Source of the DNA: Verrucomicrobiota bacterium
GTDB taxonomy: Bacteria; Verrucomicrobiota; Verrucomicrobiia; Chthoniobacterales; Terrimicrobiaceae
Length of the DNA stretch: 64,000 bases
Direction: 5' to 3'
Assembly (NCBI GenBank): GCA_018970255.1
Contig: JAGWWS010000003.1
Location: 1-64,000, forward strand
Both the position numbers and the translations under genes were made by a program. The notes under the pieces are model-generated. The model did not search any database. It was not told the DNA's origin and saw only the letters and a list, made by a program, of their open reading frames with translations. Positions 60,415 through 64,000 of this stretch are shown here, in pieces; the first letter of the stretch is position 1; each line of letters starts with the position of its first letter.

Positions 60415-60837
60415 GTGTCCGGGAACGCGCTCTTCGCCATCCACTGCGCCGCCACCTTCGCCATGTCGGGCATCATTTGGTTCGTCCAAATCGTCCACTA
60501 CCCGCTCATGGCGGAATTCCCCCCGGCGCGCTTCGGCGAAATCGAGCGCCGGCACTGCGACCTCACCGGCTTCGTGGTCGCCCCGCTCATGCTCGCGGAA
60601 ATTTCCACCCTCGGCCTGCTCCTGCTCGGCGGCATGGGCGGTTTTTGGTTTTTGGCGTCCGCCGCCCTGCTCGCGCCGGTGTGGCTCTCCACCTTCCTGC
60701 TCCAAGTCCCCGCCCACCGCGCCCTGCTCCGCGGCTGGGACCCCGCGGCCCACTCCCGCCTCGTCGCCACGAACTGGATCCGCACCGCCTGCTGGACTTT
60801 GCGAAGCCTCGCACTGGGCGCGATTTTGGTGAAATAA
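60415..60837 (+). CDS. Small four-helix membrane protein of unknown function
   Basis: A 140-residue integral membrane protein with about four helices (ALFAIHCAATFAMSGIIWFVQ, VVAPLMLAEISTLGLLLLGG, WFLASAALLAPVWLSTFLL, WTLRSLALGAILV). Conserved-looking charged residues are HYPLMAEFPPARFGEIERRH in the first loop and VPAHRALLRGW before the last helix; this pattern resembles small DUF1772-like membrane proteins, but I do not assign a function. The start is a GTG at 60415, eight bases after the glgX stop, so it is probably co-transcribed. Confidence 0.65.
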   Translation: MSGNALFAIHCAATFAMSGIIWFVQIVHYPLMAEFPPARFGEIERRHCDLTGFVVAPLMLAEISTLGLLLLGGMGGFWFLASAALLAPVWLSTFLLQVPAHRALLRGWDPAAHSRLVATNWIRTACWTLRSLALGAILVK

Positions 60838-60902
60838 TCCCCTTGCCGCCCCCAACCTTCTGGGCTATCTATCCCGCCCCTTTAACCAAAAACCGACCTC
60901 CA

Positions 60903-61664
60903 ATGGCGAAAAAATCCAACAAGCCCGCCAAGCCGAAAGCCGCCAAAAAGCCCGTGGCGAAAAAATCCGCTGCCAAGAAACCGGCAGCCAAGGCGAAGCC
61001 TGCTCCCCCCAAGAAAAAACCCGCCCCCGCAAAGAAGCCCGTTTCCAAAAAACCGGTTGCCAAAAAGCCCGCACCCAAGAAACCCGAGCCCAAGAAGCCG
61101 GCCCCGAAAAAACCCGCCGCCAAGGCGCCCGCGAAGCCGGCTCCCAAGAAACTTCCGCCGATCATCATCAAGAAAAAACCCGGCAAACCCGTGAAGCTCA
61201 GCGGCTGGGTCCTCAAGCAGCGCCAGCGCCTCCTCCAACTCAAGGACACGCTCCTCGACTCCATGAACGGCGTCGGCCGCGACACCCTCCGCTCGCGCGC
61301 CGAGGGCAGCGAGGCCTCCGCGTTCGGCATGCACACCGGCGATGCCGGCAGCGACGCCTACGACCGCGACTTCGCCCTCAGCCTCCTCTCCCAGGAGCGC
61401 GACTCCCTATTTGAAATCGACGCCGCGCTGAAAAAAATCGACGAGGGCAACTACGGCCTCTGCGAGATGTCCGGGCGCCCGATCCCCCACGTCCGCCTCG
61501 AGGCGCTCCCGTTCGCCCGCTACACCATCGAGTGCCAGTCCGAACTCGAAAAAACCAACCGCCTCCACCGCGTCCGCACCCCCGTCACCTCGCTCTTCGG
61601 CCTGAATGACGAGGACGGCGAGGACGGCGAGGAAGAGTCATCGACCACCGAATCCAAGGAATAA
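60903..61664 (+). CDS. DksA/TraR-like protein with a long basic N-terminal tail
   Basis: A 253-residue protein in two parts. Residues 1-95 are a Lys/Ala/Pro-rich tail ([21 protein letters not shown]-type repeats) like histone H1. Residues 100-225 are a DksA-type domain: a coiled coil ([20 protein letters not shown] ... [20 protein letters not shown]) and a finger-like end ([21 protein letters not shown]). The zinc finger is degenerate: of four cysteines only Cys187 and Cys211 remain, the others being Ser190 and Thr208. DksA binds the RNA polymerase secondary channel; the tail could add DNA or RNA binding. An acidic C-terminus ends it. rpmG follows after four bases. Confidence 0.87.
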
Positions 61665-61668
61665 AACC

Positions 61669-61842
61669 ATGCCACAGGAAAACATCACCCTCGAGTGCAC
61701 CGAGGCCAAGGCCGAGGGCAAACCCGCCTCGCGCTACATCACCACCCGCAACAAAAAGAGCCCCCGCACCCCGAACCGGCTCGAGAAAAAGAAATTCAAC
61801 CCCCACCTCAACCGCCACACGCTCCACCGCGAAATCAAATAA
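61669..61842 (+). CDS. rpmG: 50S ribosomal protein L33
   Basis: A 57-residue ribosomal protein. The core [20 protein letters not shown] plus [18 protein letters not shown] matches L33. The zinc-binding cysteine pairs of the C+ form are absent (NPHLNRHT instead of CPxCxxHT), so this is a zinc-independent C- form; many bacteria carry both. I chose the ATG at 61669, four bases after the DksA-like gene. rpsR follows after six bases, so all three are probably in one transcript. Confidence 0.92.
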
Positions 61843-61848
61843 CACGCC

Positions 61849-62088
61849 ATGCAGCCCAAAACGCCCCAACGCCGTTCGAACTTCCGCCGCGCCAACCGCT
61901 CGATGCCCCGCCGCCGCGTGGACATCAACACCGAGGCCATCGACTACAAAAATCCCGACCTCCTCAAGCGCTTCGTCACCGAGAGCGGCAAGATCCTTCC
62001 CCGCCGCGTGACCGGAATGTCCGCACGCCTGCACCGGAAAATCACCCGCGAAATCAAGCGCGCGCGCGCCGCGCTCCTCATGCGCTGA
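61849..62088 (+). CDS. rpsR: 30S ribosomal protein S18
   Basis: A 79-residue ribosomal protein with the S18 core [20 protein letters not shown] and [20 protein letters not shown], followed by RARAALLMR. Length and C-terminus are normal. It lies six bases downstream of rpmG. In many bacteria rpsR neighbours rpsF, ssb and rplI; here it is instead grouped with rpmG and a DksA-like gene. Confidence 0.96.
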
Positions 62089-62095
62089 TTTTTTC

Positions 62096-62117
62096 CGCGG
62101 CCGGAAAACCGGCCGCG
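62096..62117. other. Strong GC hairpin between rpsR and pal
   Basis: A perfect stem CGCGGCCGG/CCGGCCGCG with an AAAA loop starts eight bases after the rpsR stop. A T-run lies before it on the plus strand (62089-62094) and none after it, so it is not a standard intrinsic terminator in either direction. It may protect the 3' end of the rpsR message or attenuate read-through. Confidence 0.5.
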
Positions 62118-62153
62118 CTTGAATTCCGGGAAAATTCGTTCAACTTGCCCCGC

Positions 62154-62663
62154 ATGAAGAAATCCACGCTCGCCATCCTCCTCGCCGCCGCCACCCTCGC
62201 CCTCCCCGCCTGCAACAAGAAAAAGGGCGACCAGTTCGCAGGCGTCGACGGCGACTTCGTCACCAGCACCCCGCTCGGCGAACGCTTCGAAGGCGATTCG
62301 AATTTCTTCAGTGACAGCGTCGCCAAGGGCCAATTTTCCCCCGTTTATTTCGGATACGACAGCTACGCCGTCTCGCCCGCCGAGGCATCGAAAGTCCAGC
62401 AAGTCGTCACCGCCCTCAAGGACACACCCTCAAACCGCCTCATCGTCGCCGGGTTCACCGACGAGCGCGGCACCCAGGAATACAACCGCGGCCTCGGCGA
62501 GCGCCGCGCCCAAGCGGTCCGCCAAGCCCTCATCGACGCAGGCATTGCCGCCGACCGCATCCAAACCGTCAGCTTCGGCAGCGAAATGCCCGCCGACCCC
62601 GCCAGCAACGAACAAGCGTGGGCCCTCAACCGCCGCGCCGAATTCGGCATCGTCAAAAACTGA
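62154..62663 (+). CDS. pal: OmpA/Pal-family peptidoglycan-associated lipoprotein
   Basis: A 169-residue lipoprotein with lipobox LALPAC (Cys20). After a linker of about 40 residues comes an OmpA_C domain: SPVYFGYDSYAVSPAEASKV, LIVAGFTDERGTQEYN and GLGERRAQAVRQALIDAGI, which binds peptidoglycan and ties the outer membrane to the wall. The usual NxxLSxxRA motif reads GLGERRAQAV here. tolA and tolB are not in the window, so a Pal-like role is by family. I chose the ATG at 62154, which gives the signal peptide. Confidence 0.9.
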   Translation: MKKSTLAILLAAATLALPACNKKKGDQFAGVDGDFVTSTPLGERFEGDSNFFSDSVAKGQFSPVYFGYDSYAVSPAEASKVQQVVTALKDTPSNRLIVAGFTDERGTQEYNRGLGERRAQAVRQALIDAGIAADRIQTVSFGSEMPADPASNEQAWALNRRAEFGIVKN

Positions 62664-62838: not shown

Positions 62839-63312
62839 TCAACCGAACTTCATCAATTTGACTTTATTTCCGGAAAGAACTGCTTCTCCGGATTTTTTCC
62901 ATCCGTGTTTTTCGAAAAATGCGGTGTCGTGCATGGTCCATAGCCAGAGAGGGCGCACGCCCAGTTTCCTCGCGTGTTCCATAGCGTGGTTCATCAAACG
63001 CGTGCCGATGCCCAGCCTACGAAACCCGGGTTCCACATAGAGCGAAGCCAGCCAAGGTCCGAGATGATCGAACCCAGCGAGATCTGTGGGGTCGAGCGAG
63101 ACAGTGCCAATTGGTTGACTGCCGGAAAGCGCAACAAATGTTGTGGGAATCGTCCGGCAACCGGAGTTTCGGCGCAGGCCCGTTTCGATTTCTTCCGCGG
63201 GGATGGCTTCCAAAGTTCCCCATTCGGAATGAATCCACGCGGCGAGCGTGGGGATGGCTTGCGGAAATTCCGCAAGTGACAGGATTTCAATTTGGGCGTG
63301 CCGCATCACCAT
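62839..63312 (-). CDS. GNAT-family N-acetyltransferase
   Basis: A 157-residue acetyltransferase. The acetyl-CoA-binding segment is LASLYVEPGFRRLGIGTRLM, followed by AMEHARKLGVRPLWLWTMHDTAFFEKHGWKK-type C-terminal strands. The N-terminal third (LSLAEFPQAIPTLAAWIHSEW) is like that of small-molecule or peptide acetyltransferases; the substrate is unknown. The start region overlaps the end of the bactofilin gene by 26 bases; ATGs at 63312 and 63306 are both possible. It converges with pal across a 175-base gap in which I see no gene. Confidence 0.85.
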   Translation of the reverse strand: MVMRHAQIEILSLAEFPQAIPTLAAWIHSEWGTLEAIPAEEIETGLRRNSGCRTIPTTFVALSGSQPIGTVSLDPTDLAGFDHLGPWLASLYVEPGFRRLGIGTRLMNHAMEHARKLGVRPLWLWTMHDTAFFEKHGWKKSGEAVLSGNKVKLMKFG

Positions 63313-64000
63313 CCGTGGCGGGCGCGTCGTTCGACTGGGAACTTGCTGCGGGTTCGCTGGAATCTTCCGTGACAGTTTCGGCGGCTTCTTGGGTTTCGGT
63401 TCCAGCTTCGATTTGAGGGGGTTCCTCGACAGGCGCGGGTTTGGCCGGGGGGCGGATCACGCAGGGACCGTGGAGGACGCCGCCTTTTTCCACCACGAGC
63501 GAGGTGGTTTCGATCCGGCCTTCCAGGCGGCCGTTTTTTAGGACGCGGACGATGCCACTGCAGCGGACATCCGCGTTGAGTTCCCCTTCGACCGTGATGG
63601 CGTCGCCTTCGACGGGTTGGCGGAATTCGGCGCGGGATTTTTTTTCCACGACCAGGTGGCCTGCGCTGATGCGGCCGGGGGAGGGCTTTTGAAGTGCGAG
63701 GCGCGCCTCACCTTCGCAACGCATGTGCCCGTGAAAAGTTCCTTCGACGCGGGCGGAGCCGCAGACGATCCAATTCGAGGAGAGGATTCCCTTGGGGCCG
63801 ATTTTCAGATGGCCGCGGGTGTCCACCGCGCGGGAGGCGCTGGCGTTGATCGAGACTTCGATGAGTTCGATGGGGGCGTAGCAGCCGGGGCAGATGGTGC
63901 TTTGGGCCTTCTGCGAAACCATGTGCGTGCGGCCGCACTTGAGGCAATGGACCGGGCGGGTGGCTTCCTGTTTTTTCCCGATGAAATTCGGGAGTTCGCT
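63287..64000 (-). CDS. Bactofilin with N-terminal zinc ribbon (5' end cut by window edge)
   Basis: The frame is open from the window edge, so the N-terminus is missing; 237 residues are visible. Counting from the edge, Cys19/Cys22 (HCLKCGRTH) and Cys37/Cys40 (ICPGCYAP) form a zinc ribbon. A bactofilin domain follows: a right-handed beta-helix with short repeats such as GPKGILSSNWIVCGSARVEG, ITVEGELNADVRCSGIVRVL and LEGRIETTSLVVEKGG. Bactofilins polymerise into cytoskeletal filaments that guide wall growth or stalks. A 55-residue acidic, Pro/Glu-rich tail ends it. An internal ATG at 63922 would cut the first Cys pair, so I regard the longer frame as real. Confidence 0.82.
   Translation of the reverse strand, partial: SELPNFIGKKQEATRPVHCLKCGRTHMVSQKAQSTICPGCYAPIELIEVSINASASRAVDTRGHLKIGPKGILSSNWIVCGSARVEGTFHGHMRCEGEARLALQKPSPGRISAGHLVVEKKSRAEFRQPVEGDAITVEGELNADVRCSGIVRVLKNGRLEGRIETTSLVVEKGGVLHGPCVIRPPAKPAPVEEPPQIEAGTETQEAAETVTEDSSEPAASSQSNDAPATDGDAARPN

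Follow-up and report, generated by a model that had tools for sequence, protein, structure and literature searches.

A bactofilin with a putative zinc-ribbon head, encoded next to a canonical bactofilin in Verrucomicrobiota

Bactofilins build their core polymer without nucleotide, and because its contacts alternate it lacks an overall polarity. It is therefore an open question how such filaments are ended, anchored and given partners. The cell biology of the Verrucomicrobiota has been little studied. According to the part available to us of a 2025 paper, canonical bactofilins polymerise via alternating N-to-N and C-to-C contacts, and the most impactful substitutions lie at the C-to-C interface: F130A in Caulobacter, L110S in H. 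pylori and F105R in Thermus (PMC12364344). The ends of bactofilins have been described, in the excerpts consulted, as short disordered tails, amphipathic peptides or, in some Gammaproteobacteria, transmembrane segments. The same kind of source assigns to the N-terminal parts roles in membrane binding, in localisation and, for CcmA, in the inhibition of client contact.

The window analysed here is a stretch of DNA of 64,000 bases (bases 1-64000 of contig C22, which has 109967 bases) from an assembly of 2.56 Mb that is 93.4% complete. A first-pass annotation had pointed to a CxxC-14-CxxC motif immediately before a bactofilin domain, in a minus-strand frame (63287-64000) still open at the window edge. 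Both points held. The motif is CLKC-14-CPGC, and the domain matched PF04519 with 60.2 bits for the part inside the window and 59.3 bits for the whole protein (Pfam cut-off, 27.9). The contig sequence carries the frame 147 bases past the edge to an ATG at position 64147, with no stop codon or frameshift just beyond position 64000; upstream of this ATG are two more codons and then a stop, giving a frame of 288 codons. The idea of a zinc-ribbon-like head fused to a bactofilin was thus well supported, but the head is larger than had been noted, with two ribbons, the first of which lies past the window. The internal ATG at 63922 sits, as first noted, between the two cysteine pairs of ribbon 2, and a start call there would hide the head of the protein. 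This start is ruled out by the open upstream frame together with the conserved N-termini of the relatives. The features are listed in Table 1.

Table 1. Position of the ribbon bactofilin, its parts and its partner on contig C22.
Feature	Position	Strand	Basis or remark
Partner gene, canonical bactofilin of 139 aa	C22:64154-64573, beyond the window	- (same strand)	PF04519, 89.0 bits
Ribbon bactofilin gene	63287..64000 in the window, to ATG 64147 on C22 (same numbering)	-	286 aa + stop; residues 50-286 inside the window
Ribbon 1 cysteines, CPVC-14-CRSC, residues 12-33	C22:64049-64114, beyond the window	-	Sequence
Inter-ribbon linker (residues 34-67), window part, residues 50-67	63947..64000	-	pLDDT 42-45 over residues 41-60
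Ribbon 2 cysteines, CLKC-14-CPGC, residues 68-89	63881..63946	-	pLDDT 85-91 over residues 61-90
Ordered segment from ribbon 2 to the canonical core, residues 90-130	63758..63880	-	Predicted structure and fold alignment
Canonical bactofilin beta-helix core, residues 131-232	63452..63757	-	Pfam PF04519; 6rib_A fold match
C-terminal tail, residues 233-286, Pro/Glu/Ala-rich	63290..63451	-	Mostly low model confidence

Homologues with the same head were looked for by a protein search of 58 genomes (the source genome and 57 relatives). Matches were obtained in 51 of them, the misses being G016, G031, G040, G045, G048, G049 and G057. For conservation we used the open reading frames (ORFs) of the best 30 matches by overall similarity (the source protein and 29 relatives), with no cysteine filter. 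All eight cysteines were kept in 30/30 of these proteins, which rules out chance cysteines. In alignment A1 (22 sequences), P13, Q19, E21, S27, T28, P87, I93, T110 and G112 were also invariant, and 22/22 members matched PF04519 at E <= 0.01. The source protein matched no known zinc-ribbon family over its cut-off: the best was RPB9 in Pfam, with 17.9 bits against 25.2, and the best NCBIfam match, NF047912, was likewise below (18.9 against 37). By E value, single members of A1 matched the TFIIB ribbon (one member, E 9.3e-6) and DUF5817 (E 2.9e-5). Profiles weakly similar to the ribbons were those of the Cas-phi zinc finger (E 4.5e-4) and, at E 0.035 to 0.066, of the ribosomal proteins S27 and L37Ae. 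The ribbons would bind zinc, to judge from the cysteine motif.

The family is widespread but patchy in the phylum. Among 387 sampled Verrucomicrobiota genomes, 119 were matched and 268 were without a match, some of the weaker matches being canonical bactofilins; the match began within the head (model position 72 or less) in at least 96 of the 387. A scan of named genomes with the pattern [LA][IVK]ST[NYF]CRxCG, which diverged heads would escape, gave 60 loci, including one in Chthoniobacter flavus Ellin428 (L094), and all their titles placed them in Verrucomicrobiota. The ribbon protein was without a match in plasmids. When the head alone was searched, matches were obtained in 53 of the 58 genomes, and those below E 1e-9 occurred only at ribbon bactofilin ORFs. 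Eleven weaker matches were found at E 5e-6 to 7e-4. Three of them (L180-L182) we take to be a short McsA-like protein; L178 and L179 are zinc-ribbon proteins of about 400 aa, and the one in G016 is a frame of 26 codons at the end of its contig.

The gene upstream was compared over a pool of 130 loci (30 from the 58-genome protein search, the 60 named ones and 40 fetched stretches). By profile and a loose cysteine pattern, 128 of these hold a ribbon bactofilin (L162 and L163 were dropped), and removal of duplicates left 104 non-redundant Verrucomicrobiota loci. In 102 of the 104, the ORF immediately upstream, on the same strand, was a bactofilin. At the source locus, 6 bases separate the partner stop from the ribbon bactofilin ATG; the partner matched the Thermus bactofilin with an E value of 2.4e-12, and these two ORFs are the only ones in the source genome that match PF04519. 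In 94 of the 102 loci the upstream ORF was identified with the partner profile, and the gap between its stop-to-stop frame and the ribbon frame was 166 bases or less, or the two overlapped. The other 8 upstream ORFs are short and either abut the ribbon frame or run into it; they match PF04519, seven of them above the cut-off and that of L122 with 26.9 against 27.9. The two loci where no upstream bactofilin was seen are cut short, L016 by the end of its contig and L141 after just 223 upstream bases. The ribbon protein was never seen without its partner where the contig permitted the check. At L118-L123, L150 and L160, some of which have Methylacidiphilales titles, the upstream partner matches PF04519 over only about 49 to 67 residues.

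A canonical bactofilin can occur without a ribbon paralogue. Six genomes were picked in which a bactofilin was present and a ribbon match had not been noted beforehand; five gave matches to the helix part only, and in the sixth, G447, the match includes ribbon 2. Two of these five, the 0.9 Mb genomes G031 and G040 of the same order, keep one canonical bactofilin and gave no match to the ribbon head.

Neighbouring genes were clustered by BLAST at 61 loci (the 60 named ones and the contig under study, many of the contigs being short), and clusters of frames antisense to real genes were disregarded. The only near-universal neighbour was the partner bactofilin (54/61), and no conserved third gene that would point to a docking target was near-universal among these loci. 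The next families, named by eye, were an oxidoreductase-like gene (23 loci) and a repeat-rich gene (18 loci). Another family, found in 9 loci, is presumably a gyrase B subunit. At the source locus, a 1267-aa Ser/Thr protein kinase is encoded just upstream of the bactofilin pair (L004:4641-8444, minus strand; on contig C22 past the window edge); its PAS, guanylate-cyclase and leucine-rich-repeat signals are weak and all below cut-offs. On the other side, the ATG of a GNAT acetyltransferase gene (62839-63312, minus strand) overlaps the 3' end of the ribbon bactofilin gene by 26 bases. Neither the kinase nor the acetyltransferase was recognised among the recurrent neighbours of the 61 loci. The window also encodes a DksA/TraR-type C4 zinc finger protein (60837-61664, plus strand; PF01258, 38.0 bits), whose long Lys/Ala/Pro-rich N-terminal tail weakly resembles histone-like HC2 (21.0 bits; cut-off, 40). 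Directly after it, at 61669-62663 on the plus strand, come the genes for ribosomal proteins L33 and S18 and then an OmpA-family gene.

The architecture of the head was then compared over the 104 loci. By pattern, 77 of the proteins have two ribbons and 27 have one, L124 among the latter being cut by a contig end; because the cysteine pattern was used in selecting these loci, their counts are no test of the cysteines, for which the unfiltered set of 30 serves. The cysteine pairs are spaced by 14 residues in 77/77 first ribbons and 103/104 second ribbons. In the one deviating protein, L024, an additional cysteine misled the parsing, and its sequence also has the spacing of 14. Ribbon 2 stands at a distance of 20 residues from the TxG motif of the helix in 93 of the 104 proteins, 21 in two, 23 in one and 11 in one (the motif was not found in seven). 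The linker between ribbons 1 and 2 ranges from 25 to 212 residues in the 77 double-ribbon proteins. This constant distance, taken with the variable linker, argues that ribbon 2 is fixed in place on the helix and that ribbon 1 is tethered. Ribbon 1 is absent from 26 of 103 loci (L124 set aside) and so cannot be essential to the core mechanism.

Other forms of the head were also seen. Many of the single-ribbon relatives (L125-L141, L143, L155-L159 and L161) have a short N-terminal motif such as KxxVVDGFxxxR where ribbon 1 would be; one pattern, around [D/G/S]G[F/Y/L], found it in 20 of the 26 single-ribbon proteins. A relative with four ribbons (G029, L177:621-1730, plus strand) has three tandem copies of ribbon 1 and then ribbon 2 before the bactofilin. 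We built a quick tree of 106 rows, with SH-aLRT support and no bootstrap, from 89 of the 104 ribbon proteins and 17 of the 94 partners; the 15 ribbon proteins left off were near-copies, truncated, or otherwise removed by hand. Sixteen of the 17 partners came together on a branch of their own, separate from the ribbon proteins (SH-aLRT, 100). The 17th, P_L144, with only 48% of its columns filled, grouped among the ribbon proteins. The ribbon number changes twice on this tree.

The fold was predicted with AlphaFold2 on alignment A1 (mean pLDDT, 80.8; pTM, 0.58). Order in the model extends from residue 61 to about residue 230, with a pLDDT of 94-98 over helix residues 101-230. VIA-align placed residues 131-232 of the model on the Thermus bactofilin 6rib_A (Z 14.0, rmsd 1.8, 98 aligned) and also matched Caulobacter BacA 2n3d (Z 12.6, rmsd 2.2, 101 aligned). 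Foldseek alone gave a weak best match, 6rib at E 0.074; the absence of a known family from fold-match lists proves nothing. Residues 91-130 are also ordered in the model. The N-terminal end of the canonical core, which is one of the two faces used in polymerisation, is thus preceded by ribbon 2 and by some 35 additional ordered residues, and some unrelated beta-helix proteins (for example 4kh3 and 6n2b; rmsd 2.8) align from residue 91-97 on. From the strand positions and the alignment ranges, we read residues 90-130 as additional beta strands, by which the helix would be extended at its N-terminal end, with ribbon 2 seated there. Strands surround each CxxC in both the model of the whole protein and that of the head alone. 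The head-only model (mean pLDDT, 70) had TMEM55B as its best match, with Z 5.7 but an rmsd of 11.2, the others being at 3.8 or less; the ribbons of ribosomal S27e, ZitP and LysW matched it weakly (Z 3.3-3.6).

We also compared the C-to-C interface in the two families. At the column of Thermus F105, the partner has Phe in 88 sequences, Ile in 3, Leu in 2 and Val in 1 (n = 94). The ribbon protein has Leu in 45, Phe in 29, His in 13, Tyr in 9, Val in 2, Ile in 2, Arg in 1 and a gap in 3 (n = 104), and the source protein has Leu. By sequence, the C-to-C face of the ribbon protein thus appears to be still mostly hydrophobic, with Phe no longer held. In the available part of the 2025 paper, H. pylori CcmA has a natural Leu at this interface position (PMC12364344). 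A Leu at the interface is therefore no sign of lost polymerisation.

That the two bactofilins are encoded together at almost all of the related loci examined points to a filament system of two parts, as yet undescribed. On the sequence anatomy, gene pairing and conservation shown above, and on the predicted fold, we propose the following. The first gene would give an ordinary self-assembling bactofilin. The second would give an accessory bactofilin that carries extra strands and ribbon 2 on the N-terminal end of its helix and ribbon 1 on a flexible tether. With its N-terminal end extended and covered, such a subunit should join only by its C-terminal face, hence the proposal that it caps or decorates the partner filament. 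The ribbons would then form a head to which another protein docks, probably in the organisation of the cell envelope or of polarity. We give a probability of about 0.4 to this reading, namely that the accessory bactofilin ends or decorates the partner filament via its C-terminal face and displays its ribbons as a docking head.

A tentative alternative, somewhat unlikely in our view, is a docking head without capping: the ribbon bactofilin would copolymerise freely with its partner, and the ribbons would recruit a client, as in the case of ZitP and PopZ. Since the N-terminal parts of known bactofilins have other jobs, a head at this end does not necessarily imply capping. H. neptunium BacA and BacD are reported, in the extract available, to copolymerise on co-expression and to co-localise (PMC10945521), and the ZitP zinc ribbon, according to a partly available source, interacts with PopZ and is a polar localisation signal in Caulobacter (PMC5182065). 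The conserved residues Q19, E21, S27, T28 and R31 of ribbon 1 could make a binding surface. The head-only model matched ZitP 2nb9 weakly (Z 3.6, rmsd 3.5 over 40), but many other ribbons score equally, and common arrangements reach such values too. However, the fixed distance of ribbon 2 to the extended N-terminal end suggests more than a loose head.

The head could instead be structural only: ribbon 2 would cap the beta-helix for folding, and ribbon 1 would be dispensable. Consistent with this, the model predicts ribbon 2 and the helix with confidence as a single block, and the 26 single-ribbon proteins retain the helix-adjacent ribbon, with a distance to TxG of 20 or 21 residues in 23 of them and 11 in one (TxG was not found in two). 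However, where ribbon 1 is present its four-cysteine spacing is the same in 77/77 proteins (a set picked by a looser cysteine pattern), and a triplicated ribbon 1 occurs in one relative, which would be unlikely for a dispensable part. We consider this explanation improbable. Least probable of all is a nucleic-acid-binding head that ties the chromosome or RNA to the bactofilin scaffold, for although the weak Cas-phi, S27 and L37Ae profile matches, RPB9 below its cut-off and the TFIIB match of one A1 member point that way, the net ribbon charge is near neutral (mean, +1.1 for 77 first ribbons and +1.0 for 103 second ribbons; +4 or more in only 7/77 and 5/103), and no DNA-segregation gene was recognised among the recurrent neighbour families of the 61 loci. 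The first-pass annotation had suggested that the head might bind partners or nucleic acid, or control polymerisation. Of these roles, this near-neutral charge, together with the position of ribbon 2 before the extended N-terminal helix end in the model, favours polymer control or protein docking over nucleic acid.

The proposal of an accessory subunit that ends or decorates the filament can be carried further, to a metal-dependent end-cap or anchor subunit. The zinc-ribbon cap would set the end, the length or the attachment point of the partner's filaments, with metal occupancy as a possible switch; we regard this version as doubtful. If the two genes do encode a conserved pair, a plain bactofilin together with one modified at its end, filament ending and anchoring would become directly testable with two small proteins, and the pair would supply a candidate morphogenesis system for Verrucomicrobiota.

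The Pfam and NCBIfam scans gave no model that joins a zinc ribbon and a bactofilin, and no zinc-ribbon or zinc-binding bactofilin was found among 5.39 million open-licence PMC papers. In Caulobacter ZitP, a zinc ribbon serves as a head that docks to a polar scaffold, according to the part of the source available (PMC5182065); ZitP differs in being a membrane protein with DUF3426 and without a bactofilin domain, and its likeness to the ribbon bactofilin is the weak fold match given above. The halofilins of Haloferax volcanii are likewise two bactofilin relatives in one organism, acting in cell shape, and the portion of the review available does not mention a zinc ribbon; they are set beside the ribbon bactofilin by description only. 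Closer is the pair BacA and BacD of H. neptunium (Hyphomonas neptunium), two bactofilin paralogues that interact and form a common polymer. In the available part of that paper, however, both have short unstructured ends and bacD is not in an operon (PMC10945521). The bacA gene adjoins an M23 peptidase gene, according to the material available, whereas none was recognised among the recurrent neighbours here. With the canonical bactofilins of Thermus thermophilus (6ria/6rib) and Caulobacter (BacA, 2n3d), the ribbon bactofilin has the beta-helix core and PF04519 in common. It differs from them in that the interface Phe is not kept and in that the short disordered flanks typical of bactofilins are replaced before the core: where the canonical proteins have a short disordered tail, the ribbon protein has about 35 more ordered residues and a ribbon, mostly with a second ribbon.
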